DNA of 61,138 nucleotides from Polaromonas sp. (GTDB lineage Bacteria; Pseudomonadota; Gammaproteobacteria; Burkholderiales; Burkholderiaceae_C). Position 1 is the first letter of the stretch. Each line of letters starts with the position of its first letter. Of the stretch, positions 7,876 through 52,870 are shown one piece after another. The stretch lies in contig JANYED010000213.1 in assembly GCA_025363315.1 (NCBI GenBank), positions 1-61,138 on the forward strand, given 5' to 3'. The notes under the pieces are model-generated. The model was not told the origin of the DNA. It did not search any database and saw only the letters and a list, made by a program, of their open reading frames with translations. Both the position numbers and the translations under genes were made by a program.

Positions 7876-7986
7876 GTGACGTTAAAACTAGCCACACCTA
7901 CCCCGCCTGAGGCCGCTCACACGCCGATGATGCGGCACTACCTTGGGATGACTTCAAAACCCGCATGGATATTGGCTTTGCGCTAA
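7876..7986 (+). pseudogene. Stranded 5' stub of mutS at the left junction
   Basis: Starting at GTG 7876 the frame reads (M)TLKLATPTPPEAAHTPMM then RHYLGM and runs to TAA 7984-7986 (36 aa). The HTPMMR piece is the conserved MutS N-terminus and is shared at nucleotide level with intact mutS at 50309-50328. This is the original mutS start, cut off by insertion; after the 20-bp repeat the frame enters element sequence and stops. The host mutS promoter should lie in the 20 bp before it or further back in suhB. Confidence 0.8.
7918..7937 (+). repeat. attL core (20-bp direct repeat)
   Basis: cacacgccgatgatgcggca, identical to 50309-50328. The flanking bases differ on both sides (left: ccgct/ctacc; right: gggaa/gtatc), so the identity ends sharply at 20 bp. 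Confidence 0.85.
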
Positions 7987-8000
7987 TTCATCCAATGCTC

Positions 8001-8020
8001 AGTCCCCATATAGTCCCCAT
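8001..8020 (+). repeat. Integrase arm-type site pair, left end
   Basis: AGTCCCCAT at 8001-8009 and again at 8012-8020, exactly 11 bp apart (one helical turn). The same pair with 11-bp phasing occurs at the right end (50163 and 50174). Position 60-80 bp inside the core suits arm-type sites of a tyrosine integrase. Confidence 0.6.
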
Positions 8021-8087
8021 CAACCATGACGGCATTCGAGGGAATGGGCTTTTCCCGCGAAACGCTCTGCGCGCCTAAAATTTGGGC

Positions 8088-8268
8088 ATCAGGTCCCAGT
8101 CCGATGATGGCATTGGCGGCACCCTCTCCTCGCGGCGGCTATCAACGCGAGGACCAAGTAGGACCTGATTAATCGGGGTTGATCCCCACTCGATACAGCT
8201 TGCCGAAAGGCGGGGAAATCATTCCCTTGGACGGGCTGTCGATATGACCCCTTGGCGGCCGCCAAGGG
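8088..8268. other. Highly structured non-coding stretch near the left end
   Basis: Nested perfect inverted repeats: ATCAGGTCC (8088-8096) pairs with GGACCTGAT (8161-8169) and encloses the hairpin CCTCGCG (8128-8134) / CGCGAGG (8146-8152). It is followed by GGGG-TTGAT-CCCC at about 8175-8187 and a perfect 20-bp palindrome, CCCTTGGCGG/CCGCCAAGGG, at 8249-8268. A 48-codon frame at 8026-8172 overlaps it but has no ribosome-binding site. It could be a structured RNA, a folded single-strand DNA site or a control region for the methyltransferase that follows. The rest of the 7938-8358 gap shows nothing else. Confidence 0.5.
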
Positions 8269-8358
8269 TAGCCGTAGCGGAGTTTTCTTCCGTGAACCGG
8301 CGTCCGAACTCGCCGTGGCTTCTTAGATGATGGCCATGGCTCCGTTCGGAGTCATATT

Positions 8359-9747
8359 TTGAAAGCTTCCCCACGCGCCTGCCGCGCTCTCGCCAACTTC
8401 CTGGCGACCCCCGACGCCGCGACCTTCTTCAACGGTCGCGGCGTCATCTCCAATCCATCTTTCAAGCTGATTCGCGAAGCCACAGAGGCCGAGATTGGCT
8501 TTCAGGTTGTGGCCCACGAAGCCGAGCCCGGCGCCTGGATCGCCGAGCCTGGCTGGCTGTGCCGGTCGAACGCCATGCCGTTGGACATGACTCCGCTGCA
8601 CCGCGGGTCGACACGCTTCCAAACCAAAAGCGAGGCGGTCGAGGACGCGATGAATCGCGGCATGCTGATGATTCGCGCCCAACGACACCGTGCCTCCCAG
8701 TCTTCCGCCTGGCTGGCCGAGATCGAAGCGATTCGCTCGTGGATGGCCGATGCCATGGTCACGGTCCGCGCGGACGATGCCTCCCTGCCCCTTCGCGGCG
8801 TGACCTGCATCGACATCTTCAGTGGCGGCAACGGCGGCTTCTCGCTGGGCTTGGCGAGCCTGGGGGCGACCATCGAGCTCGCATGCGAGATCGACGCGAA
8901 CGCCCGCGATGTTTATCGTCAAAACGTCCGCCCCAAGGCCATGCACGACGACGTATGCACGCTGAGCCTCAAAGGCCGAAAGGTCGACATCGTGACGATG
9001 GGCCTTCTCTGCCAAGCGTTTTCTCCGTCCGGCAAAGGACTAGGGTTCGCGGACCCCAAGCTGGCCGCCGCATACGCCGCCTCCATGCGTTTGCTCGAGG
9101 AAGTCGACGCCAAGGTCGCCATCATTGAATGCTCCTCGAAGTTCCTGAACCTCCATGGCGGCAAGCATTCGGACGAGCTCATCGGCCGCATGCTCGCTTC
9201 CGGCTACCGCGCTCAGCATCGCGTGATGAATTCGGCAGGCTTCGGCGTGCCCCAGGACCGTGAGCGTTCAGTGCTGGTGTTCACCCGAGTGGGAGTGCCC
9301 GTGGACGCCCTCATGGGATTCATCTTCCCGGAGGAGGCCGCTCCTTCTGTCTCGGTGGAAGACATCATGGAATCCGGCGTGCCGGTGACCATCAGTGAAT
9401 CCCAACTGACTCTCAATGCGGACGAGCCCGCAGAGCGGGTCGGCGCGACCGTCCGCTTGGGTGACATCGACGGCAAAAAGCATCAGGGTTACCGGATTTA
9501 CAGCACAAAGGGCATCGGAATCGCCCTTACCGCCAGCAGCGGCGGAAAAGGCCGTTTTAGCGGGGCATACCGCGTCAAAGGCGGAGCGCGCGCCCTGACC
9601 CCTCGCGAGGCATGCCGTATGCAAGGACAGCCGGAATGGGCGGCCCATCACGAGACGCACACTCATGCCATGCGTCATGCGGGAAACGCCATCGCGACAC
9701 CTCTGGCCCGCGAAATCGGACGCCAGTTGGCCTCGATCCTAAGCTAG
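8359..9747 (+). CDS. Atypical C5-cytosine DNA methyltransferase (lone)
   Basis: A 462-aa protein with the C5-methyltransferase motif order but altered key motifs. SAM motif I is CIDIFSGGNGGFSLGL (residues 150-165). The catalytic loop reads LCQAFSPSGKGLG at 217-229, with Leu in place of the almost invariant Pro of PCQ but the Cys kept. Motif VI reads IEC (256-258) instead of ENV, keeping Glu. QDRER (motif VIII), the target-recognition region, RALTPREACRMQG (IX) and GNAIATP (X) are normal. The N-terminal 145 aa form an extra domain of unknown role. The TTG start is chosen because GGAG at 8348-8351 precedes it with 7 bp spacing and no ATG exists before residue 73. No restriction gene adjoins it. 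Confidence 0.8.
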   Translation: MKASPRACRALANFLATPDAATFFNGRGVISNPSFKLIREATEAEIGFQVVAHEAEPGAWIAEPGWLCRSNAMPLDMTPLHRGSTRFQTKSEAVEDAMNRGMLMIRAQRHRASQSSAWLAEIEAIRSWMADAMVTVRADDASLPLRGVTCIDIFSGGNGGFSLGLASLGATIELACEIDANARDVYRQNVRPKAMHDDVCTLSLKGRKVDIVTMGLLCQAFSPSGKGLGFADPKLAAAYAASMRLLEEVDAKVAIIECSSKFLNLHGGKHSDELIGRMLASGYRAQHRVMNSAGFGVPQDRERSVLVFTRVGVPVDALMGFIFPEEAAPSVSVEDIMESGVPVTISESQLTLNADEPAERVGATVRLGDIDGKKHQGYRIYSTKGIGIALTASSGGKGRFSGAYRVKGGARALTPREACRMQGQPEWAAHHETHTHAMRHAGNAIATPLAREIGRQLASILS

Positions 9748-9758
9748 CCGAAGAAGAA

Positions 9759-9784
9759 AGCCGACCGATGTTGTTCGGTCGGCT
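9759..9784. terminator. Hairpin between convergent genes
   Basis: Perfect 9-bp stem AGCCGACCG / CGGTCGGCT with an 8-nt loop, placed between the stop codons of the methyltransferase and the convergent 257-aa gene. Probably terminates from both sides; T-tracts are weak. Confidence 0.65.
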
Positions 9785-9787
9785 CGT

Positions 9788-10561: not shown

Positions 10562-10807
10562 GACAGATTCCTTCCGTATGCGAATCGCGGGTGCCCACTG
10601 CCAGTGACTCGCCTACAAAGGGAATCAGGATTGATGATGTGTGATGAAAAGCCGTCCCGTGAGGGTTTGCCGTGGTGGGCAGCAGGCGTCGACGTGCGCC
10701 TGACTCCACTGTAAGCCACCTCTTGCGTGCAAGTCAACTTCTGACTAGTCAAGTCTGGTGAGAGGGATCCCCCAGAGCCGGCGCTGCTGCCTCACTGCGG
10801 TGACCGT

Positions 10808-12900: not shown

Positions 12901-12916
12901 CTGTTTATTATTACAG
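12901..12916 (+). promoter_or_regulatory. LexA (SOS) box of the umuDC-type operon
   Basis: CTGT-TTATTATT-ACAG is a perfect match to the CTGT-N8-ACAG SOS operator of beta- and gammaproteobacteria, with an AT-only centre. It lies 30 bp before the ATG at 12947 and is the only perfect match noticed in the window. It should make the five genes that follow damage-inducible. Confidence 0.85.
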
Positions 12917-12946
12917 CACTGGTTTTAGATACAGTATGATTTGCAA

Positions 12947-13141: not shown

Positions 13142-13153
13142 ACCCGCTCTTCC

Positions 13154-13585
13154 GTGTCCGCCCTACTTCCGCAACTGCTGGACGCGTCGCCCATTTGGGT
13201 CCACGAGCTCGATTCGCTGATCAAAGCGGGCTTCCCCTCTCCGGCCGAGGATCTGGGCGCCACCCGGATCGATGTTTTCGACAAGCTGATCGTGCGGCCG
13301 GCCGCGACCTTTGTCATGCGAGTGAGCGGCGACTCGATGATCGCCTACAAAATCTTTGACGGGGACGTGATCGTCATCGACCGTGGGGTGAAAGCCAGGC
13401 ACGGCCACATCGTCGTCGCGCACTTGGACAACGATTTCCTCGTCAAGTGCCTCTACAAAAAGAACGGCGTCATCAAGCTCCAATCGGGCAACCCCACCTT
13501 CCCGGACATCGTGCCCAAAGAGGGCCAGACGCTCAACGTCTGGGGCGTGGTGACGGCGTCAGTCACTCGCTTCGTGCCGGTGTGA
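13154..13585 (+). CDS. UmuD-like self-cleaving S24 peptidase
   Basis: A 143-aa UmuD homologue: RecA-promoted self-cleavage gives the active subunit of DNA polymerase V. The cleavage pair A25-G26 sits in LIKAGFPSP, the nucleophile is S61 in VSGDSM and the general base is K98 in DFLVKCLYK; these match E. coli UmuD (24/25, S60, K97) almost residue for residue. The start is GTG at 13154, 12 bp after the small leader gene; the UmuC-like gene begins 5 bp after its stop. Controlled by the LexA box at 12901. Confidence 0.92.
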
Positions 13586-13589
13586 CGCC

Positions 13590-14888
13590 ATGTTCGCGCT
13601 AATCGATGGGAACAACTTCTATGTGAGTTGCGAGCGGGTGTTTCGGCCCGACCTCAACGGCCTTCCGGTGGTTGTGCTCTCCAACAATGACGGGTGCGCG
13701 ATCGCCAGGAGCAACGAGGCGAAAGCCCTGGGCATCGCGATGGGCGCCCCGTGGTTTCAGATCAAGCACATGTCTGAGTCGCATGGGCTCGTGGCTCTAA
13801 GCGCCAACTTCGCGTTGTATGGCGACCTCTCCGACCGCGTGGCGAGCCTGACGGCGGGATTCGGCCCGCGCCAGGAGATTTATTCCATCGACGAGAGCTT
13901 CATCGACCTCGCTGGCGTGACGAGGGACCAAGTCGCCTATGGGCACCGCATGCGCGCACGCATCCTCGACTGGGTGGGCATCCCCTGCGGCATCGGCATT
14001 GGCTCGACAAAAACGCTGGCGAAGCTCGCGAATCATGTCGCCAAGACGGCTGAGCGCAAGCCTGGCTCATATCCGATTCAGTTCGCCCAGGTCTGCGACT
14101 TCTCGGCGATGTCTCCTGTGGAGTTCACCGACGTGATGGAGCGGACCAACGTGGACGAAGTCTGGGGCGTCGGCAGGCAAATATCGAACCAGCTTAATGA
14201 TGGCGGCGTGAGGACGGTCGCGCAGTTGATGGCCCTCGACCCCGCGACGGTCCGCCGTGGGTGGAGCGTGGTGTTGGAGCGCACGGTGCGCGAACTGCAA
14301 GGCGTGTCGTGCGTGGCTTTGGAAGACGTGCCCGCGGACAAGAAAGAGATCGCGAACACGCGCTCTTTCGGCCACGTCATCACGGAGAAATATCAATTGG
14401 TCGAAGCGGTGACGGACTTCGCCACCCGCGCGGGCGAGAAGGTCCGAAAGCAAAGCGGGCTCGCGGGCCTGGTTCACGTGTTCATCCGCACCAGCCCCTT
14501 TCGCAAAGACGACGCGCAATACTCGGGCTGCATCACGGTGCCCCTTCGGCGCCCCACCTGCGACACGAGGCATCTCGTCGCGGCGGCCGTCATGGGGTTG
14601 GAGCGCATCTACCGTCCGGGCTACAACTACGCCAAGGGCGGAGTGATGCTGTTGGAGCTGCAGCCCGACACCCGCATCCAAAACGAGCTTGATCTCGGCG
14701 ACGACGTGCCGGACAAAGGGAAGCTCATGGCCGCCCTGGACAGCCTCAACCAACGCTACGGGAAAGGCACGGTGATCATGGGAAGCTCGGGCAACCGGGG
14801 AAGCGACCGCGAGTGGAGCATGAAGCAGGAAAGGCGCACGCCGGCATATACGACAGAATGGGAGGACATGCCCATCGCCAGGGCATGA
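13590..14888 (+). CDS. UmuC-like Y-family DNA polymerase
   Basis: Error-prone translesion polymerase subunit, 432 aa (E. coli UmuC 422). The palm begins [20 protein letters not shown], with metal-binding D6 in LIDGNN and the second acidic pair in SIDESFIDL (about residues 99-107). [26 protein letters not shown] is the Y-family finger region. Little-finger and C-terminal segments follow, with QNELDLGDD near residue 370 at the place where E. coli UmuC has its beta-clamp-binding QLNLF; the match is partial. It should act with the UmuD-like protein after DNA damage and raise mutation frequency. Confidence 0.93.
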
Positions 14889-14906
14889 TTACAAGGAGGC
14901 CGCCGC

Positions 14907-15644
14907 ATGTGTTCGAACTATCGCCCCGTGACCCGCGACGACCGTCTCCTCGCCTTCTTTGGCGTCGAGCGCGGCCGGGACGAGCCGTCGAGCGACGTGT
15001 TCCCTTCGGGCCTTGCGCCCATGATCCGGCTTGCTTTCGACGATGGGACGGTGAGCGGCGGGCGGCTTGCCATCATCGACGCGATCTTTCGCTTCGTCCC
15101 AGACTTCGTTTCCAAAGTCGAATGGGCCAAGCGCACCTACAACGCCAGGACCGAGACGGTCGATGAGCGAGGCTCATACAAAGAGGCTTGGGCCAAAGGC
15201 CAGCGTTGCGTGATTCCTGTCGAGGGCTTTTACGAGCCTTACTACGACCCGGCCGACCCCAACGGCAAATCGGTGCGCTGGAACATCCAACAACCCGGCG
15301 GCGTGCCTATGGGCATCGCGGGAATCTACCGCACATGGGAGATGCCTGACGGCCGCATCGCTTACGCGATGGCGATGATGACCGTGAACGCCGACGACCA
15401 TCCCTTCATGAAGCGGTTCCACAAGCCAGGCGACGAGAAGCGGATGGTCGTGATCCTCGACCCATCCGATTACAGCAAATGGCTGTCTTGCCCCGTGGCC
15501 GAGGCGAAGTCGCTTTGCAAACAGTGGATGGGGCCGCTCGATGGCAACCCTGCGCCGCTCGCGCCACGCATCGCCAAGCCCAAGGCTCCCAAGCCGCCTA
15601 AGCCAGCCCCACCACCGATGCCGACCACAGGAGACCTTTTTTGA
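14907..15644 (+). CDS. SRAP/HMCES (YedK)-family abasic-site protein
   Basis: SRAP proteins shield abasic sites in single-stranded DNA by a covalent link through Cys2. This 245-aa member begins MCSNYRPVTRDD with Cys2 in place, and keeps the family Asn in YNARTET, the Glu in PVEGFYEPYY and the His in NADDHPFMKRF. A Pro/Lys-rich tail ends in TTGDLF, similar to beta-clamp-binding peptides (Q-x-x-L-F), although the Gln is missing. It is fourth in the SOS operon, 18 bp after the polymerase gene, and overlaps the next gene by 4 bp. Pairing with a translesion polymerase fits its role in handling abasic lesions at forks. Confidence 0.92.
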   Translation: MCSNYRPVTRDDRLLAFFGVERGRDEPSSDVFPSGLAPMIRLAFDDGTVSGGRLAIIDAIFRFVPDFVSKVEWAKRTYNARTETVDERGSYKEAWAKGQRCVIPVEGFYEPYYDPADPNGKSVRWNIQQPGGVPMGIAGIYRTWEMPDGRIAYAMAMMTVNADDHPFMKRFHKPGDEKRMVVILDPSDYSKWLSCPVAEAKSLCKQWMGPLDGNPAPLAPRIAKPKAPKPPKPAPPPMPTTGDLF

Positions 15645-16144
15645 TGCGCAACAGTGGCGAAGGTGGAACGCGCCTCGTCTTCGGATTTCTGCTCGCTGCG
15701 CTTTCGTCGCTGCCGGTCCACGCCGACATCACCGGGAAAGTCGTCGCCATTCAAGATGGAGACACGCTCACGGTGCTTGACGAAGCCAACACCCAGCACC
15801 GAGTCCGTCTGACTGGCATCGACGCGCCGGAAAAGCGACAAGCGTTCGGACAACGATCAAAGGAAGCCCTGAGCGATTGCGCCTATGGAAAAGCAGTTGT
15901 GGTCGTAGGCGATAAATTTGACCGCTACAAGCGACTGCTGGGGAAAATCGTCGTGGACGGCCAAGACTGCAACCTGAGGCAGATCAAGTTGGGGCTGGCT
16001 TGGCATTACAAGAAATATGAGCGCACGCAACCCTTGGGCGAACGCACTTCATATGCTCGCGAGGAAATCCTCGCCAAGGAATCACGAGCAGGGCTTTGGA
16101 AAGACGAGGCGCCAATCCCGCCATGGGATTTTCGACACCCTTAA
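15641..16144 (+). CDS. Secreted thermonuclease (SNase)-family nuclease
   Basis: Staphylococcal-nuclease-like OB-fold nuclease, 167 aa. A signal peptide (RLVFGFLLAALSSLPVHA) precedes ITGKVVAIQDGDTLTVL, with the calcium ligand Asp in QDGDTL, VRLTGIDAPEKRQAFG with catalytic Arg and Asp-Ala-Pro-Glu, and the second Arg region KFDRYKRLLG. It overlaps the SRAP gene (ATGA-type coupling). A periplasmic or secreted nuclease in an SOS operon is odd; SNase genes are, however, frequent on conjugative elements, where they may process or clear DNA. Confidence 0.88.
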   Translation: MMRNSGEGGTRLVFGFLLAALSSLPVHADITGKVVAIQDGDTLTVLDEANTQHRVRLTGIDAPEKRQAFGQRSKEALSDCAYGKAVVVVGDKFDRYKRLLGKIVVDGQDCNLRQIKLGLAWHYKKYERTQPLGERTSYAREEILAKESRAGLWKDEAPIPPWDFRHP

Positions 16145-18581: not shown

Positions 18582-19541
18582 TCAATCCTTGTCCATGTCG
18601 ATGATGCGTTCCGCGCGTGTCAGGACATGGTCATACGTCAGGACAGTCAAGTTGTGGAAGCTGGCGTTCAATATGCGATACGCCTCCGCCTGCTCAGGCG
18701 TCCAATCGTTTGACCTTCCGAACAGAAGAACGCAGCGGGGCTTGACGGTTTTCACTCCACCAACGTTGTCTAAAAATTTCACGCTGTTCGCTTCGAGCTC
18801 GATTTCGTGGATGTAGCGCGAGGCTTGAGTGATCGCTTTGATGAGGTCTGTGGAGGGGACAGAGTTTCCGTGATCGAGGGCCGCGGCCCAAAACTGCATG
18901 CCGCCCCCTGGCCGCTTGATTTCCACTACGTCGAGGAAGCCGTCATAGGCCTCCATGAGGAAGTCGGAGATGTTCTTCGTGTCGATGCGCCTCTCGTCGA
19001 GGATGCGGACGAACTCGCTGCCCAGCACCCAGCTGTTCTCCTGGAACCACTGCTGCCAGCGCTGCTCGACCAGGTCCTCTTCGAGCATGGATCGATATTC
19101 CCGCACTGCCCGCAGCCGCTTTGCCTGGCGAAGACCATCGGCGAGTTCGTCAGGAATGATGTCGTTGTCCAAAATGAAACGCACGAGCTCAGCCTTCTGG
19201 GGAACGGAGAACAGAGCTTTGATCTGGCTGGCGTTGTCCGCCTCGAATGGACTGTCCAATGGGATGAACGCCTTCACGCCTTGCCGAAACGGCTCATAGC
19301 TCTCTTGCAAAAAAGCGATGAGCTCCTTGAACTCGTCATGGTCCAGCGTCAGCTCGCTTTTAGGATCCAGCGTCTCCGCCTCCTCTTTCTGGTCAAACCA
19401 TGCTGATGTTTTGTAGCGGCCGATCTTGAGGCATACATCCTCCCTAGGCGTGTTATGCGGAATCTTCCAGAAAAACGCCCGCGTGACGACCGTGGGCTTT
19501 GTCCTCAGGACCCTCTTCAACTGGCCTTCGATTTTTTGCAT
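18582..19541 (-). CDS. Shedu (SduA, DUF4263) anti-phage nuclease
   Basis: Single-gene Shedu defence protein, 319 aa. The C-terminal domain has the PD-(D/E)xK-type active site D204-x2-E207-x-K209 in GFLDVVEIKRPGG, followed by DLIKAITQASRYIHEIE and RCVLLFGRSNDWTPEQ, typical of DUF4263. The N-terminal 150 aa are a variable sensor part. The ATG at 19541 is chosen because a perfect GGAGG lies 5 bp before it; the frame is open further upstream but that stretch is not protein-like. Shedu proteins block phage by DNA cleavage. It is divergent from vsr, sharing a 121-bp promoter region. Confidence 0.88.
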   Translation of the reverse strand: MQKIEGQLKRVLRTKPTVVTRAFFWKIPHNTPREDVCLKIGRYKTSAWFDQKEEAETLDPKSELTLDHDEFKELIAFLQESYEPFRQGVKAFIPLDSPFEADNASQIKALFSVPQKAELVRFILDNDIIPDELADGLRQAKRLRAVREYRSMLEEDLVEQRWQQWFQENSWVLGSEFVRILDERRIDTKNISDFLMEAYDGFLDVVEIKRPGGGMQFWAAALDHGNSVPSTDLIKAITQASRYIHEIELEANSVKFLDNVGGVKTVKPRCVLLFGRSNDWTPEQAEAYRILNASFHNLTVLTYDHVLTRAERIIDMDKD

Positions 19542-19662
19542 GGCGCCTCCTATTTTTTTGAAGTTGTCAGGGCATTCTCCACGTGTTGCGATGAAATGAA
19601 CACCTCGCCTCTGACCAGCCCGGCATTCGCGCCGTCGCGGGCGACACGCATTAGCATCGAGC

Positions 19663-20097
19663 ATGGCCGATTCACTGACTCCCGAGCAACGCGTGAAGAC
19701 CATGCGGGCGGTGAAGTCGAGCGGCACGCGCCCCGAGCTCCTCGCGCGGCGCCTTTGCCGCGAACTCGGCATGCCAGGCTACCGACTCAACCGGTCCGAC
19801 ATCCCGGGCAAACCTGACATCGCGTTCATCGGCCGCAAGCTGGCCATTTTTGTCCATGGGTGCTTCTGGCATCGACATGACTGCAAGGCCGGGATCAAGA
19901 TCCCTGCGACCAACGCCGAATACTGGATACGCAAGTTCGACCGCAATGTGAGCCGCGACAAGATCGCGCTTCGCAGCCTCAAGCTTTTCGGTTGGTCTGT
20001 GCTGACGCTTTGGGAGTGCGAGCTCTCAAACGAGGCGAAAATCCGCAGAAGGATGCAGAATTTTTTCGCCAAGCACGCGAACCCATCAACCCGCTAA
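19663..20097 (+). CDS. vsr: Very short patch repair endonuclease
   Basis: Nicks next to T:G mismatches left when 5-methylcytosine deaminates, so protects sites of a cognate cytosine methyltransferase. The 144-aa protein has RVKTMRAVKSSGTRPELLAR, the catalytic Asp52 in IPGKPDIAF and the zinc/active-site segment FVHGCFWHRHDC (63-74). It is placed just before a C5-methyltransferase and GIY-YIG nuclease, the usual place for a restriction-linked Vsr. In E. coli excess Vsr interferes with MutS/MutL repair and is mutagenic, which matters here because the element also alters mutS. Confidence 0.95.
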   Translation: MADSLTPEQRVKTMRAVKSSGTRPELLARRLCRELGMPGYRLNRSDIPGKPDIAFIGRKLAIFVHGCFWHRHDCKAGIKIPATNAEYWIRKFDRNVSRDKIALRSLKLFGWSVLTLWECELSNEAKIRRRMQNFFAKHANPSTR

Positions 20098-20170
20098 AAT
20101 ACTGTATTAATATAGCTATTGGATAAAACGTAGCGCGTTAGCCGCACCATGGGCGTCCTAGGGGCGGTTT

Positions 20171-20190
20171 GGATACACAAATGTGTATCC
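20171..20190. promoter_or_regulatory. Perfect palindromic operator before the RHH gene
   Basis: GGATACACA-AA-TGTGTATCC, a perfect 9+2+9 palindrome ending 12 bp before the GTG of the ribbon-helix-helix gene. Size, symmetry and place fit an autoregulatory operator bound by the RHH protein, controlling the methyltransferase and nuclease genes behind it. Confidence 0.7.
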
Positions 20191-20202
20191 AGCTGGTAAT
20201 CT

Positions 20203-20421
20203 GTGTTCACGAGCACAAAAGACGCTGGCTTGCGGATTCGCGTCGAACGCGAATTGCGCGAGGCGTTCGTCTTGGCGTGCTTCGCGGATCACCGCAAAGC
20301 GTCCGACGTGCTGCGCGAGTTCATGTCGGCATACGCCAAGAAGAATCCTGGCGGCAAGCAGACGAACTTGTTTGTCAGCGGAGATGCGATCACTACCGGG
20401 GCAGCCCGCAAGAAGGAATGA
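20203..20421 (+). CDS. Ribbon-helix-helix regulator (controller-like)
   Basis: A 72-aa protein: GLRIRVERELREAFVLACFA is a beta-strand plus helix, and HRKASDVLREFMSAYAKK is the second helix, together an Arc/MetJ-type DNA-binding dimer unit. The tail contains QTNLF, which fits the Q-x-x-L-F beta-clamp-binding pattern (tentative). The GTG start follows the palindrome at 20171; the stop overlaps the methyltransferase start (ATGA). It probably acts as the controller of the restriction-modification operon, in place of the usual HTH C protein. Confidence 0.75.
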   Translation: MFTSTKDAGLRIRVERELREAFVLACFADHRKASDVLREFMSAYAKKNPGGKQTNLFVSGDAITTGAARKKE

Positions 20422-21566
20422 CTATGCGGACTTTTTACGAATTTTTCGCTGGCGGAGGCATGGCCCGCGCGGGCCTCGGCAAGGGCTGGAATTGCCTCTT
20501 CGCCAACGATTTCGACGCCAAGAAGGGCCTGAGCTACGCCGAAAACTGGGGCGGCGATCATCTGCACGTGAGCGACGTGGCTCAAATCAAAAGCTCGATG
20601 CTTCCCAAAGAGGCTGACTTGGTATGGGCCTCTTTCCCGTGCCAAGACCTTTCGCTCGCGGGAGCTGGAGCGGGCCTTAAAGGCAGCCGATCAGGCACCT
20701 TTTGGCCGTTCTGGCAGCTTGTGAAGAAGCTGGGCAAAGAGGGGCGCGCGCCTAGAATGATCTTGCTGGAAAACGTGTGCGGAGCGTTGACCTCCCACGA
20801 AGGCAAGGATTTCTCGGCCATCGCCGGCGCCCTCGCTCGGGAAGGCTTCCGGGTTGGCGCGGTCGTCGTTGACGCCGTGAGCTTCGTCCCCCAATCGCGT
20901 CCTCGGCTCTTCTTCGTGGGCGTGCATGCCGACGCCCCGATCCCCCATGAGCTCGTGTCCAGCACCCCCATGGGCCAGTGGCACACGCCTGGCTTGATCG
21001 ACGCCTTCAACAGGCTCCCGAAGATTTCCAAGGACGCTTGGCTGTGGTGGAGGATGCCGGCTCCGGCGCCTCGCACCACCGTATTCGCCGATTTGATCGA
21101 GGAAGAACCCACCGGCGTTCGCTGGCATACAGCGGCCGAAACCGACAAGCTCCTCGCGATGATGGCTCCTTTGCACCTCGAAAAGGTCGAGAAAGCTAAG
21201 AAAGCGGGACGCCGCATGGTGGGCGCGATCTACCGCCGCACCCGTCCTGACGGCATGGGAGGCCGAGGCGTCCGTGCGGAAGTCCGCTTCGACGACATCG
21301 CAGGCTGCCTGCGCACCCCATCGGGAGGCTCTTCGCGCCAGATTATCATGCTGGTCGAAGGCAACAAGATCCGCACTCGTTTGCTCTCCCCCAGGGAGGC
21401 GGCGCGGTTGATGGGCTTGCCGGAAACCTACAAGCTGCCGACAAACTACAACGATGCCTACCACCTGGCTGGCGACGGACTAGCGGTTCCGGCCGTGCGA
21501 TACATCGCCGCCAATATTTTGGAGCCCTTGCTCGCTGGAGGCCGCGCGATGAAAATGGCGGCATGA
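20418..21566 (+). CDS. C5-cytosine DNA methyltransferase of a type II RM system
   Basis: A 382-aa Dcm-type enzyme with intact motifs: SAM motif I FYEFFAGGGMARAGLG at the very N-terminus, the catalytic SFPCQDLSLAG with Cys75, the ENV motif at 118-120 (LLENVCG), QSRPRLFFVGV (motif VIII), a target-recognition region, and LLSPREAARLMGLPE (IX). The usual GN-x-V/I near the end is replaced by AGDGLAVPAVRYIA. ATG 20418 overlaps the RHH stop; ATG 20424 is an alternative. It overlaps the GIY-YIG gene by 4 bp, so methylase and nuclease are translated together. Confidence 0.92.
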   Translation: MTMRTFYEFFAGGGMARAGLGKGWNCLFANDFDAKKGLSYAENWGGDHLHVSDVAQIKSSMLPKEADLVWASFPCQDLSLAGAGAGLKGSRSGTFWPFWQLVKKLGKEGRAPRMILLENVCGALTSHEGKDFSAIAGALAREGFRVGAVVVDAVSFVPQSRPRLFFVGVHADAPIPHELVSSTPMGQWHTPGLIDAFNRLPKISKDAWLWWRMPAPAPRTTVFADLIEEEPTGVRWHTAAETDKLLAMMAPLHLEKVEKAKKAGRRMVGAIYRRTRPDGMGGRGVRAEVRFDDIAGCLRTPSGGSSRQIIMLVEGNKIRTRLLSPREAARLMGLPETYKLPTNYNDAYHLAGDGLAVPAVRYIAANILEPLLAGGRAMKMAA

Positions 21567-22258
21567 CACAGCCGCCTTTCGAAACGCGCGAACTCCGCGC
21601 CAAGCTCCTGGAATACCTCAATCAGAAGGTCCAAGACCCAATCACCGGCACCCAGCGCCCCCTAGGCTCCTACAAGTTCGGCGTCTACGCGTTCTTCGAT
21701 TACGACAAAGAACCGATCTACGTCGGCCAGACCGCCGAGGGCATCAAGGTGCGCATTGGCCGTCACCTCACCAATCAGCGCACCGATGCCGTCGCGATGA
21801 AGGTTCTGGACCCTTTCGAGGTCTATCAGGTGGAAGTGTGGCCGCTGCCGCAATACGATTCGCGCGCGACCGGCGACACCGAGGCTAGGGCTCATCTCAA
21901 CTGGCTTGAATACGAGATCTTCCAACATTTCTTGAAGGAATCTCATTTCAATGCGGTCCTCAACGAGAAAGATCCGTTCGAGTTTCCCGCGGGCTCCTTC
22001 GTCCGTCCCGAGGGCTACCGGGGCACCATCGTGAGCCAAGCCGTTTACGACCTTCGCAGCCATCCCGATACGCGCATCGCAAGGCGAGGCGAAACACTGT
22101 CATTGCTGGCGAAAGTCATCAGCGAGCGTCAGGTTCAAAAAGGCCTGCGCAAAACTTTGCTGACCCAAGCCAAGCGGCTTGCATGGCTCGCGGAGCGCCG
22201 CCTCGGCGAGTTCGCGGACCAGCCAGACGACGCCGTAGAACCAGAGAAATCAGTCTAG
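21563..22258 (+). CDS. GIY-YIG endonuclease, probable restriction enzyme
   Basis: A 231-aa protein with a GIY-YIG nuclease core: FGVYAFFD (39-46), PIYVGQTAEGIKVRIGRHL (51-69) with the catalytic Arg, and a downstream Glu in NWLEYEIFQHFL. Only a few restriction enzymes (Eco29kI and Cfr42I type, cutting CCGCGG) use this fold. The 4-bp overlap with a cytosine methyltransferase, an RHH regulator and vsr upstream indicates a complete type II system. The recognition site cannot be read from sequence; CCGCGG is only a guess from the relatives. Confidence 0.8.
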   Translation: MTQPPFETRELRAKLLEYLNQKVQDPITGTQRPLGSYKFGVYAFFDYDKEPIYVGQTAEGIKVRIGRHLTNQRTDAVAMKVLDPFEVYQVEVWPLPQYDSRATGDTEARAHLNWLEYEIFQHFLKESHFNAVLNEKDPFEFPAGSFVRPEGYRGTIVSQAVYDLRSHPDTRIARRGETLSLLAKVISERQVQKGLRKTLLTQAKRLAWLAERRLGEFADQPDDAVEPEKSV

Positions 22259-23010: not shown

Positions 23011-24078
23011 TCAACGGGCAGTTGCGAACTCTCTGGCGCCCTCATGTTCTGCGAGCCATTCCTTGTGCGGAGCTAAGGTCGTCATCTCCCTCTCCAATCC
23101 AAGCATGTAGTTCGCCATCAGGTCTGCGTCCTTCGCGGCTGAGAACACGGCCATCGGGTCGTTCTTGATGGCTTTGATCCAACTGCGCAAATACGCCGCG
23201 TGATTTTCAAGGTGCTTTTGGTCTTGGCTCATTGGCACGCCAGTTTCCGACGCGAGAATGGCGGAAGCGATCTCTGCTCGGAGCTCCTCCACTGCGTAAG
23301 CCTCGTCTCCCCAGCGCTGGCCCAAGGCTTCAGTGCGGTTGAGGCGGCTCGCGTGCAAGGTGCTATGGGCCGCCTCATGCATTGCCGTCGCGTAATAGTC
23401 GTAGATGGACGCAAACTTCTTTTGGTTCGGGATGCGTATCTCGTCGAGCTTGGGCGAGTAGAAAGCTTTGTTGCCGCCATGGACGATCAGCAGCCCAGTC
23501 TTTTCTTTGAGGGCCGTCAGCACCGCTTCGGCCTTTCGCACGGGATCGAACGCCAAATCGGTCGCTTGCTGCATGGGAGGGATGCCCTCGACCTGCTCCG
23601 CGTTGAAGACGAAATAGCGGCGCAGCGCGAGGCTCTTGCGACGCTCGCTGTTTGGCTTCTCGCTCCCGACATTGGCGTCCTCTCCCTGGGTCGAACCACG
23701 CTCGTCCTTCGCGCGGTCGAACTCGACCACCTTCACAATCATCGTCCCCTTCTCGCCGCCTTTGACTTGCCACCCTTTGTCTAGCGCCTGCTGGTAAGTC
23801 ATCCAACGGTTGTCGGAATAGGCGCCAGGACTGCCACCCCCGGAACGCGTCGCCAACGCCAGCAACACACGATTGATCCCTTTGTATCCGTTGGAGGTGG
23901 TGGCGTTCACGGGCTTCATCGAGTTGACGCTCCATGGCCGCTGCCACGGCGTCTCCCCCTTCTCCATGGCGTCAATCAGTGTCTGAGCGACGTGGGACTT
24001 CACGTCGAACCGCGGCTCGTGCCCCGGCTTGCCCCCGGCCTCGCCGCTCGTTGCGCTCTCTTGGTGTTTTGTCGTCAT
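23011..24078 (-). CDS. ardC: ArdC-like antirestriction protein
   Basis: A 355-aa ArdC homologue. The N-terminal domain binds single-stranded DNA (VAQTLIDAMEKGETPWQRPW ... GYKGINRVLLAL ... RWMTYQQALDKGWQVKGGEKGTMIV), and the C-terminal zincin-like domain has HEAAHSTLHASRLNR with an HExxH motif. RYFVFNAEQVEGIP is also typical. ArdC proteins are carried by conjugative plasmids and protect incoming DNA from restriction during transfer. It lies next to the transfer coupling-protein gene, consistent with expression on entry. Confidence 0.92.
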   Translation of the reverse strand: MTTKHQESATSGEAGGKPGHEPRFDVKSHVAQTLIDAMEKGETPWQRPWSVNSMKPVNATTSNGYKGINRVLLALATRSGGGSPGAYSDNRWMTYQQALDKGWQVKGGEKGTMIVKVVEFDRAKDERGSTQGEDANVGSEKPNSERRKSLALRRYFVFNAEQVEGIPPMQQATDLAFDPVRKAEAVLTALKEKTGLLIVHGGNKAFYSPKLDEIRIPNQKKFASIYDYYATAMHEAAHSTLHASRLNRTEALGQRWGDEAYAVEELRAEIASAILASETGVPMSQDQKHLENHAAYLRSWIKAIKNDPMAVFSAAKDADLMANYMLGLEREMTTLAPHKEWLAEHEGAREFATAR

Positions 24079-27309: not shown

Positions 27310-27939
27310 ATGACCAAGCAACACGACAAAAATTTCAACGAAGGCCTGGGGAGATTCCTCTCCGAAGCCCCATCGGACATCCATCGCCTCATCGGGCTCA
27401 CTCCCGAGCAAGTGCTCAAAGAGACGCTCGACGCCGGGCTCGACCCCGATGCGGAGGTGGAGGCGATGCGGCGCCTCGGCCTAGTTCTCGCGGCCAAATA
27501 CGCTCCTCAGATCGAACGAGAGCGGCTCGGCGAGGCTGCGTTCTCGAAGACGTTCCCCATCTTCGCCGACGCGGTGGCGGCGGGCGCTCCCGCATGGGCC
27601 GGCTCGTCGTATGACGGGAAAGAGGCCTCCATCCTCGACGTGCTGCGCGACGCCGACCCCGAGGGGGTGATCTGGGCTCGCGTGTCGGGCTGGTCCATGC
27701 GCGACGAGGGCATCTTCGATGGCGACATGGTGCTGGTGGACACGAAGGCGGAGGCCAAAGACGGCGACATCGTGCTCGCGCACATCGCGGGTCAAGGCCA
27801 AGTGGTGAAACGCCTCAAAAAAGACGCCTTCGGAGCGTGCCTGGAATCCGCGAACCCCGAATTCGCGCCGATCGTGCTGGACGAATCGACCGTTCTGACG
27901 ATACATGGCGTTGTGATCGGCAAAGCCGGAAAACTGTGA
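27310..27939 (+). CDS. S24-family (LexA/UmuD-like) self-cleaving regulator
   Basis: A 209-aa protein with a C-terminal S24 peptidase domain: cleavage pair A91-G92 in DAVAAGAPAW, nucleophile S129 in RVSGWSMRDEGIFDGDMVLVD and base K167 in GQVVKRLKK. The N-terminal 85 aa are not UmuD-like and hold a possible short DNA- or protein-binding domain (DIHRLIGLTPEQVLKETLDAGLD). It could be a RecA-sensitive repressor or antirepressor that releases the element after DNA damage. It pairs with the sigma-like gene upstream and precedes the replication initiator. Confidence 0.85.
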   Translation: MTKQHDKNFNEGLGRFLSEAPSDIHRLIGLTPEQVLKETLDAGLDPDAEVEAMRRLGLVLAAKYAPQIERERLGEAAFSKTFPIFADAVAAGAPAWAGSSYDGKEASILDVLRDADPEGVIWARVSGWSMRDEGIFDGDMVLVDTKAEAKDGDIVLAHIAGQGQVVKRLKKDAFGACLESANPEFAPIVLDESTVLTIHGVVIGKAGKL

Positions 27940-48357: not shown

Positions 48358-48445
48358 GCCGCATCCTTGTTTGTGAGTTGCCCAAAGTCATCTCACAATC
48401 CAAGGCTGCAATCAACAGCAGCTCAGCCTCTGGTGAAGCGACAGG

Positions 48446-50035
48446 CTAAATCGTCATTTCATCTTCAATTGGTGCTGAGACCTTTTTGGGCCGCCCTGTG
48501 CGCGCCGCGGCTGGCTTGCAGACATGGGGCTCGGGAGCCGGAATAGGTGGCCATGCGGCAGGTTTAAGCGAGTTGTAGACGTTGGGGGCGCGCACGAGGA
48601 TGGCCTGCTCGATCTTCTCCATCCACTCGCGCAGAAGCTGCCATTCGGCCTGCGTGTAGGTGTCGGTCACGCTCATCTTGCCGTGGTTGAAGAACCGGCG
48701 CCTGATGGTGCCAGGGACGTCCAGCGAGGCCATCACCGCGCCAAAGGAGCGGCGCAGGTCATGGTTGGTCAGCTTCTCCAAATTGACCTCTTGGCGCAGC
48801 TCGTCGAGCAAGTCGGTCGCGTCGGAGTAGTGCCCCGACTTCGAGAGCTTGCTTCTGGCGGGAAACACGAATTTGCGAGACTTCCCCTCGAACCCGCGCC
48901 GCACGGCCTCCTCGGCCGCGAGCAACTGGCGCCGCTTCAACAGCTCCAAGGCCATCGGGGTGATCGGCAGGCGGTGATTGAGGCCGTTCTTGGTCTTGTA
49001 GAAGAAGACATAAGGCCCCCAGTCCTGGTCGTCCTTGATGCACACGTGGCTAGTGACCCTGCGCCCAACGCCCTCCTCGGCCGAATGCTCTTTGAGAAGC
49101 TCCAGCCACATGGTCTTGGCGTGCTCCGCCTTGCGGCACCCCCACAGCAGCATCAGCATCAGGTAGTGGACGCCCGTGGCGTTGTCGTTCGAGTCCTTCT
49201 TGCTCCACGCGGCCTCCAAGAACGAGCCAAGCGTCGTCGTGGGCCTCAGTGGGTTGCGTTTGCTGCGCTCCTCGCGCTCGCGCTCAATCTGCTCGCCCGT
49301 GCGGTATTGCTTGTTGAGGATGAGCACCATGAAGGGGTTGGCGACCAGCGTCGGCTCCCTGCGCTCCGCGCTTGCCGCAAGCGTCTCGAAACCAATGCAC
49401 CAGCGGACGGCGGCAGTGGCCCAGCGGAAGGCCTGCTCGTTTGCGGTGGGGAAAGCCTTGCCCTCGGCGAACTTGTCCATGATTTCGGTAGTGCCGAGCT
49501 CGCGGACTTTTCTGGTCGTCCATTTCCACCCGACGAACTTTTTCACCGCTCGGTCATAGACCCGGAGCGTCTCCTTGGTCGCGGGCTTCTGCTGCCGCTC
49601 GACCAGATGGCGCCGATACTGCGCCAGCGCGTCGCCCAGGGTCAATTCCTCGGCTGAGAGCTTGCGCGCGAGCTCGTTGGGATTTTTGCCCGTCTCGACC
49701 ATGGTCAAGGCGAGTTCAGCCGCTTTATTGCGCGCGGTCTCGATCCGCAGGAAGTCGGCGACATTGCCGACGGTGGGCATGATCGATTTGCCGTGGACCT
49801 TGCGCCGGATGATGTAGGTCTTCTTGCCGGCGACGCGGATGCCAAAGCCTGGGGGAGCCGAGCGGTTGCTGTCCCATAAGATATAGGAGGGGACGAAGTC
49901 GGGGTTTGGATGTCCATCCGCGCCCAATTTGGGATTGGCCTTGAAGATGAGCTTGCCTGTTGTGGAGTCGTAGCCTTTGGGGATCTGCTCCAAAGTCAGG
50001 CCCTTGATGAATTTGAGATCGAGATCAGTCTTCAT
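48446..50035 (-). CDS. int: Tyrosine integrase of the element
   Basis: A 529-aa site-specific recombinase, placed 270 bp from attR and transcribed inward, the usual place for the integrase that made the junctions. The N-terminal half has a DUF4102-like arm-binding part (GFGIRVAGKKTYIIRRKVHGKSIMPTVG) and a core-binding helix bundle. The catalytic domain has Arg in LLWGCRKAEHAK, H-x-L-R in TNHDLRRSFGAV, a late FNHGKMSVTDTYTQ with the His and nucleophilic Tyr, and Lys in the KTKNGLNHRLPI strand. Arm-type AGTCCCCAT sites occur at both ends. The likely target is the 20-bp mutS core. Confidence 0.92.
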   Translation of the reverse strand: MKTDLDLKFIKGLTLEQIPKGYDSTTGKLIFKANPKLGADGHPNPDFVPSYILWDSNRSAPPGFGIRVAGKKTYIIRRKVHGKSIMPTVGNVADFLRIETARNKAAELALTMVETGKNPNELARKLSAEELTLGDALAQYRRHLVERQQKPATKETLRVYDRAVKKFVGWKWTTRKVRELGTTEIMDKFAEGKAFPTANEQAFRWATAAVRWCIGFETLAASAERREPTLVANPFMVLILNKQYRTGEQIEREREERSKRNPLRPTTTLGSFLEAAWSKKDSNDNATGVHYLMLMLLWGCRKAEHAKTMWLELLKEHSAEEGVGRRVTSHVCIKDDQDWGPYVFFYKTKNGLNHRLPITPMALELLKRRQLLAAEEAVRRGFEGKSRKFVFPARSKLSKSGHYSDATDLLDELRQEVNLEKLTNHDLRRSFGAVMASLDVPGTIRRRFFNHGKMSVTDTYTQAEWQLLREWMEKIEQAILVRAPNVYNSLKPAAWPPIPAPEPHVCKPAAARTGRPKKVSAPIEDEMTI

Positions 50036-50052
50036 CGCTCTGCCCTTTCGTT

Positions 50053-50085
50053 GATCTTCGGGGGACCGAAATTTCCGCGAAGATC
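50053..50085. other. Inverted repeat at the integrase start
   Basis: GATCTTCG (50053-50060) and CGAAGATC (50078-50085), perfect 8-bp arms 18 bp upstream of the integrase ATG on its strand. Possible operator or arm-site array. Confidence 0.45.
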
Positions 50086-50162
50086 ATTGTTTTAATTAGG
50101 ATTTTCAGTCCAACCTTTAAGGGGGACTGATATCGCAGTGTATAGGAAAATGTCGAATGCCC

Positions 50163-50182
50163 AGTCACCCCAGAGTCCCCAT
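50163..50182 (+). repeat. Integrase arm-type site pair, right end
   Basis: AGTCACCCC at 50163 and AGTCCCCAT at 50174-50182, 11 bp apart as at the left end; an inverted relative (GGGGGACT) lies at 50121-50128. Confidence 0.6.
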
Positions 50183-50242
50183 AAAAAGCGAGATGCGTGG
50201 GGTCAAGGGGGTGCATGTGACGGCAAATGACGGAACCGGATT

Positions 50243-52870
50243 GTGGAAATTTCGTTGATTTCAAAGGAAAAAATAGATTTCGTTCCGAGCCCGCTGGAGG
50301 CTGGGAAACACACGCCGATGATGCGGCAGTATCTGGCCATCAAGGCTGAATACCCAGACACCCTGTTGCTGTACCGGATGGGAGATTTTTACGAAGTGTT
50401 TTTTGCCGACGCTGAAAAAGCGTCGCGGCTGCTGGGCATCACGCTGACCAAACGCGGTGCCACCAATGGTGAGCCAATCCAGATGGCGGGCGTGCCGTTT
50501 CATTCGCTTGAAGGCTATCTGGCCAAGCTGATCAAATTGGGCGAATCAGTCGCCATTTGTGAACAGGTCGGCGATGTGGCCACGAGTAAAGGCCCGGTCG
50601 AACGCAAAGTCGTGCGGGTGGTGACGCCCGGAACGTTGACAGACACCGAACTGCTGGGCGACAAATCCGAATCAGTTCTGCTGGCCGTACACCAGGGTGC
50701 ACGCAACACCTGCGGCCTGGCGTGGCTGAGCGTGACGCAGGGCCAGATCAGTCTGGCGGAATGTGCCAGCGATGAACTTGAGATTTGGTTGGCTCGTATC
50801 GCGCCCAGTGAGCTGATTTACAACGTGGATGTGACGCCCGCATTCGAGGCGCGATTGAAAGCTGCGCGCTGCGCCACCGCTGCCCGCGCTGCCTGGCAGT
50901 TTGACGCTGCGCTGGGCGCGCGGCGCTTGTTAGAGCAGCTCAAGGCCCTATCGCTAGCGTCCTGGCACGCTGAAGATCTGCACCAGGCCCACGCCGCCGC
51001 CGCCGCCCTGCTGGGCTATGCCGAGCACACCCAAGGCCGCACACTGCCCCACGTGCGGGCTTTGCAAGTGGTGCGGTCGGGCGAGTTGATCGACCTGCCA
51101 CTGACAACCCGACGCAATCTGGAGCTGACGCAAACCCTGCGCGCTGAGGATTCACCCACATTGTTTTCGTTGCTGGACACCTGCACCACCGGCATGGGCA
51201 GCCGCGCGCTAAAAAGCTGGCTGCTTAGCCCGCGACGTGCCAGAGCCGAAGCAACCGCTCGCCTGGAAGCCGTCACGCATTTGCGCGGTGGATTGCAGCA
51301 AACCTTGCGCGCGCAGCTTAAAGGCTCAAGCGACGTAGAACGCATCACCGCCCGCATCGCGCTGCGGCAGGTACGCCCGCGCGAGCTGGTGGCGCTACAG
51401 CAAACGCTATTAAAAGCAGAGCTGCTCGCGCCCAAATCCATTGGGTTACCGGCGCTTTTGGCAGGTATTTTTAGCGATTTACAGCCTCCAGAAGGCTGCG
51501 CAGCGCTTTTGAGGCGCTATTTGCTTGATGAGCCCGCCGCGCTGGTGCGTGATGGCGGCGTCATCAACCATGGCTGCGATGCAGACCTGGACGAATTGCG
51601 CGGCATTCAAACCAACTGTGACGCGTTTTTACTCGACTTGGAAGGCCGTGAAAAGGCGCGCACAGGCATCAGCAACCTGCGGGTGCAGTTCAACAAGGTG
51701 CACGGCTTTTATATTGAAGTCACGCAGGGTCAGGCCAGCAAAGTACCTGACGACTACCGCCGCCGCCAAACCCTCAAAAACGCAGAGCGCTACATCACGC
51801 CTGAGCTGAAAGCCTTTGAAGACAAAGCCTTGTCAGCGCAAGAACGCGCACTGGCACGCGAAAAGTTTTTATACGAGCAACTGCTGGACGAGTTGCAAAC
51901 CTTTATCCCCGCATTAAGCAAACTGGCGCGCGCACTCGCCTGCCTGGATGCACTTTGCGCGCTGGCAGAACGCTCTTTAACCCTAAACTGGGCGGCGCCC
52001 GTTTTCGTCAACCAGCCCTGCATCGACATTACCCAAGGCCGCCACCCGGTAGTGCAAGCGCGCCTGGCTGAAACGACAGGTGGCTCATTCATTGCCAACG
52101 ACTGCAGCCTTTCCGCCAAGCAGCGCATGCAGGTCATCACCGGCCCCAACATGGGCGGTAAATCAACCTACATGCGCCAAGTCGCGCTGATTGTGCTGCT
52201 GGCCAGCGTTGGCTCATACGTGCCAGCAGCGGCGTGTCGGCTCGGGCCGATTGACGCGATTCACACCCGCATTGGCGCGGCCGATGATGTGGCCAACGCA
52301 CAATCCACCTTCATGCTGGAGATGACGGAGGCCGCGCAAATTTTGCACACTGCCACTGCGCACAGCCTGGTGCTGATGGACGAAATCGGACGAGGCACAT
52401 CAACGTTTGACGGGCTGGCATTGGCAGGCGGCATTGCCGCGTACCTGCACAACAAAACGCAGGCTTTCACTTTGTTTGCGACACATTACTTTGAGCTGAC
52501 TGAGTTTCCGGCGCAGCACCACGGCGCTGTCAACGTGCATGTAAGCGCGGTTGAATCGGGCAACAACATTGTGTTTTTGCACCACATTGAGCCTGGCCCG
52601 GCCAGCAAAAGCTACGGCATTGCAGTGGCCAAGCTGGCAGGCGTGCCGGGGGCCGTTGTCAACCACGCACGCCATGCCTTGAATGCATTGGAGGCACAGC
52701 AAAGCGATGCTCGCGCGCAGGTTGATTTGTTTGCTGCGCCACCACAAACGCTTACCAGAGAACCAAGCCCTGTCGACAAGGCATTGGGTACGATAGAGCC
52801 TGACGCGCTCAGCCCGCGGGAGGCGCTTGATGCGCTGTACGAGCTGAAAAAACTCCTCAAACAAAATTAA
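50243..52870 (+). CDS. mutS: DNA mismatch repair protein MutS with an element-encoded start
   Basis: Recognises base mismatches and starts repair with MutL. The 875-aa protein has the mismatch-binding [14 protein letters not shown], connector, lever and clamp regions, Walker [28 protein letters not shown] and the C-terminal tetramer helix [15 protein letters not shown]. The first 22 residues ([20 protein letters not shown] then GK) come from the integrated element; conserved MutS sequence begins at [12 protein letters not shown] 50243 is the first possible start after an in-frame stop at 50228, with only a weak CGGA before it; TTG 50255 is an alternative, and the internal ATG pair at 50318 would drop HTP. 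Expression therefore depends on signals in the last few hundred bp of the element. Residues around 395 ([17 protein letters not shown]) include a dispersed-repeat copy. Confidence 0.95.
50309..50328 (+). repeat. attR core (20-bp direct repeat) within mutS
   Basis: Same 20 bases as 7918-7937, read in mutS frame as H-T-P-M-M-R plus two bases of the next codon. Confidence 0.85.
51408..51452 (-). repeat. Dispersed repeat, copy E, inside mutS
   Basis: Minus-strand reading cccaatggatttgggcgcga then gcagctctgcttttaatagcg. It sits in a variable linker of MutS and is translated in frame. Confidence 0.7.

Follow-up and report, generated by a model that had tools for sequence, protein, structure and literature searches.

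Islands specific for mutS were reported in Burkholderia in 2008 (PMC2612704), and Chu et al. 2017 described elements that replace the promoter and start of mutS at the same motif in Beta- and Gammaproteobacteria, with excision shown by PCR, Burkholderia multivorans included (PMC5296598). The mutS-associated Burkholderia islands GI8c and Bt-GI4 reside, like the element analysed here, in betaproteobacterial hosts, and their 15-bp site ACGCCGATGATGCAG overlaps the core found in this study; GI8c, however, is a putative prophage by its description, and the available text of the report does not discuss a replaced start (PMC2612704). SpyCI of Streptococcus pyogenes, likewise a mobile island, lies at the 5' end of a gene for mismatch repair and controls the mutation rate, but that gene is another one, mutL, in another phylum; most of the tested carriers are mutators, while one is rescued by a promoter inside int (PMC3430984). 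Two further elements are conjugation-related. ICEEa1 of Elizabethkingia anophelis also sits in a DNA-repair gene, though near the 3' end of mutY, which it truncates while supplying no replacement (PMC5458099), and the SXT/R391 elements use a tyrosine integrase and the 5' end of a conserved gene, but are full conjugative elements whose target is prfC rather than mutS (PMC2791158, PMC2654960).

We analysed a 61,138-nucleotide stretch of Polaromonas DNA, called the window throughout, which very probably carries a 42.4-kb integrative mobilizable element with a tyrosine integrase, inserted at the HTPMM motif of mutS and bringing a substitute start. The features of its two ends, in the order of the forward strand, are the following.

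6857-7855, forward: host gene for a suhB-like inositol monophosphatase, the upstream neighbour of the native start of mutS (Pfam Inositol_P, 1.5e-72)
7876-7917, forward: native start of mutS, now stranded, with GTG and 13 further codons (comparable stub in genome G037, intact start in genome G058)
7918-7937, forward: attL, left attachment core, mutS codons H-T-P-M-M-R (exact 20-bp repeat)
8001-8018, forward: AGTCCCC in two copies, candidates for the left arm-type sites of the integrase
48446-50035, reverse: mutS-specific tyrosine integrase with an arm-binding domain, reading away from mutS (Pfam Phage_integrase, 1.5e-7; Arm-DNA-bind_3, 2.2e-6)
50122-50180, both strands: AGTCCCC copies, one per strand, candidate right arm-type sites
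50243-50308, forward: element-supplied mutS leader, from GTG 50243 (22 codons) or TTG 50255 (18 codons)
50309-50328, forward: attR, right attachment core, in frame in mutS (exact 20-bp repeat)
50309-52870, forward: mutS body, intact (Pfam MutS domains I-V)

The insertion site, its core, the stranded start, the in-frame leader and the intact MutS can be read directly from the DNA, as can the site shared by the integrase family and an element-free relative. Even with up to three mismatches permitted, the 61-kb window contains the 20-mer CACACGCCGATGATGCGGCA exactly twice, against a mean of 0 in 100 shuffled controls, and its copies at 7918-7937 and 50309-50328 bound an element of 42,391 bp. At the left end, GTG 7876 opens a run of 14 codons (VTLKLATPTPPEAA); the HTPMMR codons of the core follow, and after HYLGMTSKPAWILALR the frame stops. 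A mobile element is thus, as read from these ends, integrated within mutS codons H-T-P-M-M-R with the native start stranded, as the earlier note had proposed. Joining both flanks at the core gave one uninterrupted mutS reading frame (867 codons and a stop), which indicates that simple recombination there would be scarless. The frame would therefore be open before and after excision, as it is in E. coli 536, P. putida F1 and B. multivorans CF2 (PMC5296598), and, unlike for the element of Vibrio splendidus 12B01, no 2-bp scar is predicted. The genome from which the window comes (386 contigs, 95% complete) has a single mutS match.

At the right end, GTG 50243 and 22 codons lead through the core into a MutS of 875 residues in which all five Pfam domains of MutS are present, which bears out the replacement leader claimed in the earlier note. 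TTG 50255, with a leader of 18 residues, may be the start instead, since it is in register with the starts of relatives, one of which (L112) has no start codon upstream of the matching position. For comparison, SXT provides prfC with a new start. The MutS structures found for bacteria align to the window's MutS only from the HTPMM motif, or next to it, onwards (residues 22-24), placing the leader outside the conserved fold. Both ends of the element were also scanned for promoters and terminators, and no sigma-70 consensus promoter was found in 49900-50400 at the right end or in 7700-8400 at the left; a new promoter for mutS from the right end is plausible, but its supply by the element is hence unproven.

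The window element thus resembles those of Chu et al. 2017 in its insertion into the HTPMM(Q) motif (HTPMMQQ in their elements), in the integrase gene beside mutS (integrase start 50035, core 50309), in the orphaned host start at the far end, which resembles the starts of element-free relatives, and in the in-frame start that the element supplies (PMC5296598). It differs in having a MOBF relaxase and a coupling protein; the word 'relaxase' does not occur in the main text of that paper, and the sole match to 'conjugat' is in its reference list (PMC5296598). Although the earlier note knew of no conjugation-related element acting on a betaproteobacterial mutS, the phenomenon was already in print (PMC2612704, PMC5296598). 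Our locus is a clear new example of a phenomenon that reports of 2008 and 2017 had documented in related bacteria, so that the interpretation is not new; it extends a known, little-studied takeover of the mutS start to mobilizable islands of environmental Polaromonas.

We propose that the tyrosine integrase inserts the element into the conserved HTPMM codons, where the identical 20-bp core preserves the reading frame in both the integrated and the excised state. The right end brings a substitute translation start and a leader resembling the mutS start regions of the genus, by which MutS would still be produced after insertion, while excision would hand mutS back to the host start. The right end may also drive transcription, the element may excise and transfer with a helper secretion system, and the level of MutS may differ between the two states.

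Filled and empty sites within Polaromonas agree with this proposal. In the element-free relative G058, mutS reads uninterrupted, as the earlier note had predicted, and the stranded stub of the element-carrying G037 equals the mutS start of G058 over the 113 bp before the core, the two genomes diverging further upstream. This natural pair would allow an effect on mismatch repair to be measured. A stub also directly follows suhB in G081, and G010 has, to the left of two elements in tandem, an MQRK-type stub as seen at other mutS genes of Polaromonas. For a survey of the genus 73 mutS starts were fetched, of which 70 were readable (L093 and L103 were unreadable, L063 has only 7 bp before the core, and G052, with a match starting at residue 181, was not in the set). 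None of the 70 begins with the 13 residues which, in a relative lacking the element, the earlier note had named as evidence against its reading. Start regions of the element type, scored with a matrix made without L120 and two near-duplicates (L117, L118), were present at 24 of the 70 loci, each with a score higher than any of 96,488 background positions; three of these have the integrase beside mutS and were members of the training set, and a fourth (L059, in G010) lies in a decayed tandem. The integrase-free ones may be fossils of the element, or equally native starts that the element copied.

The association with mutS is shared by the integrase family. One scan of genome contigs gave 18 loci with a relative of the integrase; at 17 of them mutS lies 269-384 bp away from the integrase match, and the eighteenth (L127) ends 103 bp upstream, so that relatives stand beside mutS at 17/17 readable loci. 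In the frame of mutS, all 18 loci (17 relatives and the window) have a start codon 10 or more codons upstream, as compared with 2/18 and 3/18 in the other two frames, and each of another 12 loci (L134 and 11 with integrases of the E. coli 536 type) likewise has an in-frame leader with a start codon. BLASTP detected no similarity between the window integrase and that of E. coli 536 (E 1.5), and the two types fell into separate clades in the tree, with an AU p of 0.005 against one clade. A second tree was built without window_int2; the short or broken 536-type L201, L206 and L207 were in neither tree, and the trees took in no V. splendidus 12B01 or B. multivorans CF2 integrase. What these comparisons add is that the clade of the window's integrase seems distinct from the mutS integrases of the E. 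coli 536 type, and that readable loci of both clades have in-frame leaders.

What the leader does for its host can be read in several ways. With somewhat better than an even chance, the element is an ordinary passenger whose leader keeps mutS neutral and has no regulatory role, a reading compatible with the proposal above; it accords with leader sequences that vary across loci while the frame is kept, and with a leader outside the conserved MutS fold. Conserved genes are favoured insertion targets, the site being stable. We consider it unlikely that the insertion acts as a switch of the SpyCI kind, severing mutS from its promoter so that MutS falls and carriers are mutators until excision. The lack of a consensus promoter at the right end would suit such a switch, as would the mutator phenotype from SpyCI in mutL (PMC3430984) and the altered mutation rate upon excision of the V. 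splendidus 12B01 element, through a frameshift there (PMC5296598); against it stand the intact MutS and the in-frame leaders with start codons at 18/18 family loci and 12/12 further loci, which point to selection for continued MutS synthesis. That two integrase clades keep the frame at every readable locus suggests selection not to harm mutS, and bears on whether such elements are mutation-rate switches or careful passengers. A more far-reaching idea, which we hold improbable, is that two integrase clades each settled on the same mutS codons and each evolved an end that mimics a mutS start, so that repair of the target is built in, with the takeover of mutS coupled here to an imported pol V (umuDC) in a unit that would set the host mutation rate from both sides. 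That the leader is the lineage's native mutS start, and the left stub a chance or duplicated piece, is already disfavoured by the G058/G037 pair and most improbable: the element-type starts without an adjacent integrase (the 24 of 70 minus the exceptions noted) would fit it, but the stub is fused to the core directly after suhB, it is the stub and not the leader of G037 that equals the element-free start, and G010 has its MQRK-type stub left of two tandem elements.

Returning to the preferred reading, a mobilizable element with a substitute mutS start, the interior carries the following cargo and transfer genes.

8359-9747, forward: C5 cytosine DNA methylase, cargo (Pfam DNA_methylase, 2.3e-38)
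13154-14888, forward: umuDC, pol V subunits, cargo; UmuD 13154-13585 (NF007621, 1.2e-38) and UmuC 13590-14888 (Pfam IMS, 6.5e-34)
14907-15644, forward: SRAP-domain protein, cargo (Pfam SRAP, 4.6e-29)
18582-19772, reverse: Shedu (SduA) anti-phage protein, cargo (PADLOC SduA, 1.6e-144; Pfam SduA_C, 3.7e-18)
20169-22258, forward: second C5 DNA methylase, then a GIY-YIG protein, a possible restriction-modification pair
23011-24078, reverse: ArdC-like anti-restriction protein (Pfam ArdcN, MPTase-PolyVal)
24799-26565, reverse: type IV coupling protein of the TrwB/TraD type (Pfam TrwB_AAD_bind, 5.3e-65)
27310-27939, forward: S24-peptidase (LexA/CI-like) protein, possibly the element's repressor (Pfam Peptidase_S24, 5.4e-24; 56% in the G049 element)
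30708-31862, forward: second tyrosine recombinase, adjoining the relaxase (Pfam Phage_integrase, 4.2e-13; 28% homologue beside the relaxase in G049)
31909-34803, forward: MOBF relaxase-helicase of the TrwC/TraI type (Pfam TrwC, 4.7e-57, and helicase domains)

The earlier note called the element conjugation-related, which holds for the relaxase and the coupling protein; no type IV secretion protein was matched by Pfam among the 38 element ORFs scanned, a set that leaves smaller and other ORFs outside, and 'mobilizable' is the better word for what, judged by its genes, the element looks to be. It is set apart from the SXT/R391 elements, with their prfC site and complete conjugation genes, by its site in mutS and by the secretion system not found. 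The G049 element has a 69% match to the relaxase and 64% identity in the coupling protein, and pieces of the relaxase occur in G037 and G006; as a relaxase is present in just 3 of 18 integrase-family records (known to lie on the integrase contig only in G520), it is not a feature of the family. Neither could umuDC be upheld as a family trait, Y-family polymerase genes being present in 15/18 family records versus 11/14 control genomes. In G520, the sole record whose integrase contig (C7) is named, these genes are on other contigs, and no Y-family polymerase was seen in the G049 element stretch L109, the UmuD match there being the S24 gene. The LexA-box pattern matched once in the window (12901-12916) with 0.46 expected and at least one match in 34 of 100 shuffles, and was given no weight.

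The heptamer AGTCCCC occurs four times in the 61 kb (8001, 8012, 50122 and 50174), always inside the two ends of the element; the count is no enrichment over the 5.3 expected, and it is the placement alone that is notable and fits arm-type integrase sites. No excision factor was recognised in the Pfam scan of the element ORFs, which was not a dedicated search, and no excised circle or attP was seen in the contigs searched. Phage and plasmid collections gave distant integrases only, with at most 35% identity, and viral contigs gave no excised form: the sole integrase relative there (L129) is on a linear contig, with a single match, at two mismatches, to the core pattern.

In Polaromonas, suhB and mutS lie between roughly 0.1 kb and 97 kb apart. 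Of 53 readable loci (a set without G085, at a contig end, L141, L157 and L182, with less than 300 bp, and L190, with 49 bp), only 8 were flagged for a core-like stub in the first 1.5 kb or so beyond suhB, and we rejected the idea that this element family accounts for the whole of the variable gap. Four of the eight are an unrelated protein (G064, G049, G015, G060) and two are mutS itself (G024, and G033, cut by a contig end), while those in G037 and G081 are real stubs.

The 20-bp repeat CACACGCCGATGATGCGGCA occurs in the window as a single copy each at 7918-7937 and 50309-50328, with 0 expected by chance, and both copies sit within the H-T-P-M-M-R codons of mutS, as the earlier note had claimed; this core bounds an element of 42,391 bp, core to core. 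Its neighbour and gene content are as follows.

6857-7855: suhB, upstream neighbour of the left stub (the stranded native mutS start)
48446-50035: tyrosine integrase with catalytic and arm-binding domains, transcribed away from mutS
Element backbone: MOBF relaxase, coupling protein, ArdC, second tyrosine recombinase, S24 protein
Element cargo: umuDC, SRAP, Shedu and two C5 methylases, one adjoining a GIY-YIG protein

At the left end, the original start said to be stranded was indeed present, as GTG 7876, 20 bp past suhB, opens 14 codons that run into the core and reach a stop 22 codons later. At the right end, the leader, likewise foreseen as a new in-frame start, reads from GTG 50243 or TTG 50255 through the core into complete MutS (875 residues counted from GTG 50243), and a search of the window's own genome gave a single mutS match. 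Joining the left and right flanks at the core produced one open mutS, indicating that loss of the element would be scarless provided that recombination occurs in the core. Read from the sequence, the element has replaced both the start and the N-terminus of mutS; by analogy with relatives, it may also have replaced the promoter, undergo excision and affect the mutation rate.

Among 87 genomes of the genus, Polaromonas, 75 gave a mutS match; not counting the window, 73 mutS starts were retrieved, 70 of them readable. The window's leader was absent from all 70 readable Polaromonas starts, none of them being an element-free relative that already begins with it, the case that the earlier note had set against its own claim. 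The uninterrupted empty site that it had predicted was found in the element-free genome G058, whose MutS is 92% identical to the window's over the part compared and whose 113 bp preceding the core are identical to the stranded stub of genome G037, the two sequences diverging further upstream. Integrase relatives at 59-65% identity were detected in G049, G037 and G006, plus a partial match in G081, and the leader is in frame in all three of these genomes whose contig extends to mutS. In G010, three mutS cores lie in a row (L107:6302, L059:3358 and L059:7158; G010:C79), of which one belongs to a stub, one to a chimeric junction and one to mutS, with an integrase of 35% identity interrupted by two stop codons; this is apparently a decayed tandem of two elements.

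Where a single contig of a Polaromonas genome spans it, the suhB-mutS gap measures between about 0.1 and 97 kb, and several unrelated gene sets recur directly upstream of mutS, mostly with no mutS core soon after suhB. In G058 (L033), about 850 bp with two ORFs, tentatively read as a DUF1778-acetyltransferase toxin-antitoxin pair, part suhB from mutS. The gap of about 42 kb in G042 holds a second, truncated mutS 5' copy (L091:1989; G042:C1 about 3512537) with an open stretch of about 140 codons and, over 412 bp, 93% identity to the mutS of that genome.

One scan of genome contigs gave 18 loci with relatives of the present integrase. In 17 of them the contig is long enough to show the neighbourhood, and in every one of these mutS lies 269-384 bp from the integrase match; L114, L116 and L123 among these are apparently the already counted G049, G037 and G006. 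In all of 18 cases (17 loci and the window) the mutS frame is open from a start codon lying 10 or more codons upstream, whereas the two other frames offer one in 2 and 3 of 18. Leaders vary among the loci, and a common TTGA changes phase according to which start codon serves, suggesting that the reading frame is maintained and the spacing is not. At L125, from a genome named as Hyphomonadaceae, an element of this type is fused to a mutS that shares 83% identity with the window's mutS over the part compared; this suggests either faulty binning or very recent transfer.

The novelty implied by the earlier note did not hold: mutS-specific recombination was reported in Burkholderia in 2008, at a 15-bp site overlapping the window's core (PMC2612704), and hundreds of Beta- and Gammaproteobacteria carry elements in the HTPMMQQ motif that replace the mutS start and promoter (PMC5296598). 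In the latter study excision was seen in four strains, E. coli 536 among them, and was clean in three; in V. splendidus 12B01 it led to a 2-bp frameshift and a hypermutator (PMC5296598). The window's element is a real, clean example of this already known kind; within the open-licence titles and passages covered, no mutS-inserted element from Polaromonas or of MOBF type is described.

By BLASTP, the mutS-adjacent integrase of E. coli 536 is not significantly similar to the present one (E 1.5). Among 369 genomes of the class, 12 hold relatives of the 536 integrase, at 13 places, 11 of which adjoin mutS; the exceptions are L202, which has 296 bp of its locus upstream, and L203, whose genome shows mutS on its other piece, L207. 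These 11 and L134, a distant member of the present clade (28% identity), all have a start codon in the mutS frame 5 or more codons upstream (12 of 12), whereas the two remaining frames have one in 0 and 1 of 12. When the present set (20 rows) and the 536-type set (10 rows) were placed in one tree together with 21 further tyrosine integrases, the two sets fell into separate clades and a joint clade was rejected (p 0.005); because the outside rows were collected by searching with the present integrase, and because long branches were flagged, two separate clades are likely, not proven.

By a start-region matrix built from 15 family loci, 24 of the 70 Polaromonas mutS starts outscored every one of 96,488 background positions, so the element leader resembles a start region common in the genus. 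These 24 include three training loci and the G010 tandem, and in the other 20 the present integrase was not matched within 2 kb. The likeness presumably arose by capture, in either direction.

AGTCCCC has four copies in the entire window, two near each element end; the count is about that expected by chance, but the placement is not. Of the 18 integrase loci, 15 have at least one GGGGACT/AGTCCCC copy within 420 bp of the core at the right end; when 420-bp stretches taken from Polaromonas mutS loci were shuffled, 7% had one. A Pfam scan of 38 element ORFs revealed no secretion-system gene, so the element is best termed mobilizable. The G049 element has the coupling protein, relaxase, ArdC, S24 gene, second recombinase and others in common with it at 28-69% identity. 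A relaxase is present in 3 of 18 integrase-family records, and this backbone is of limited spread within the family; umuDC is, as far as seen, private to the window's element. The second recombinase (30708-31862) lies directly 5' of the MOBF relaxase, and in the G049 element a 28% homologue is placed likewise. A DNA-damage cargo block (13154-16144) comprises umuD, umuC, SRAP and a staphylococcal-nuclease-like gene, and near it is a LexA-box-like match without statistical weight at 12901-12916.
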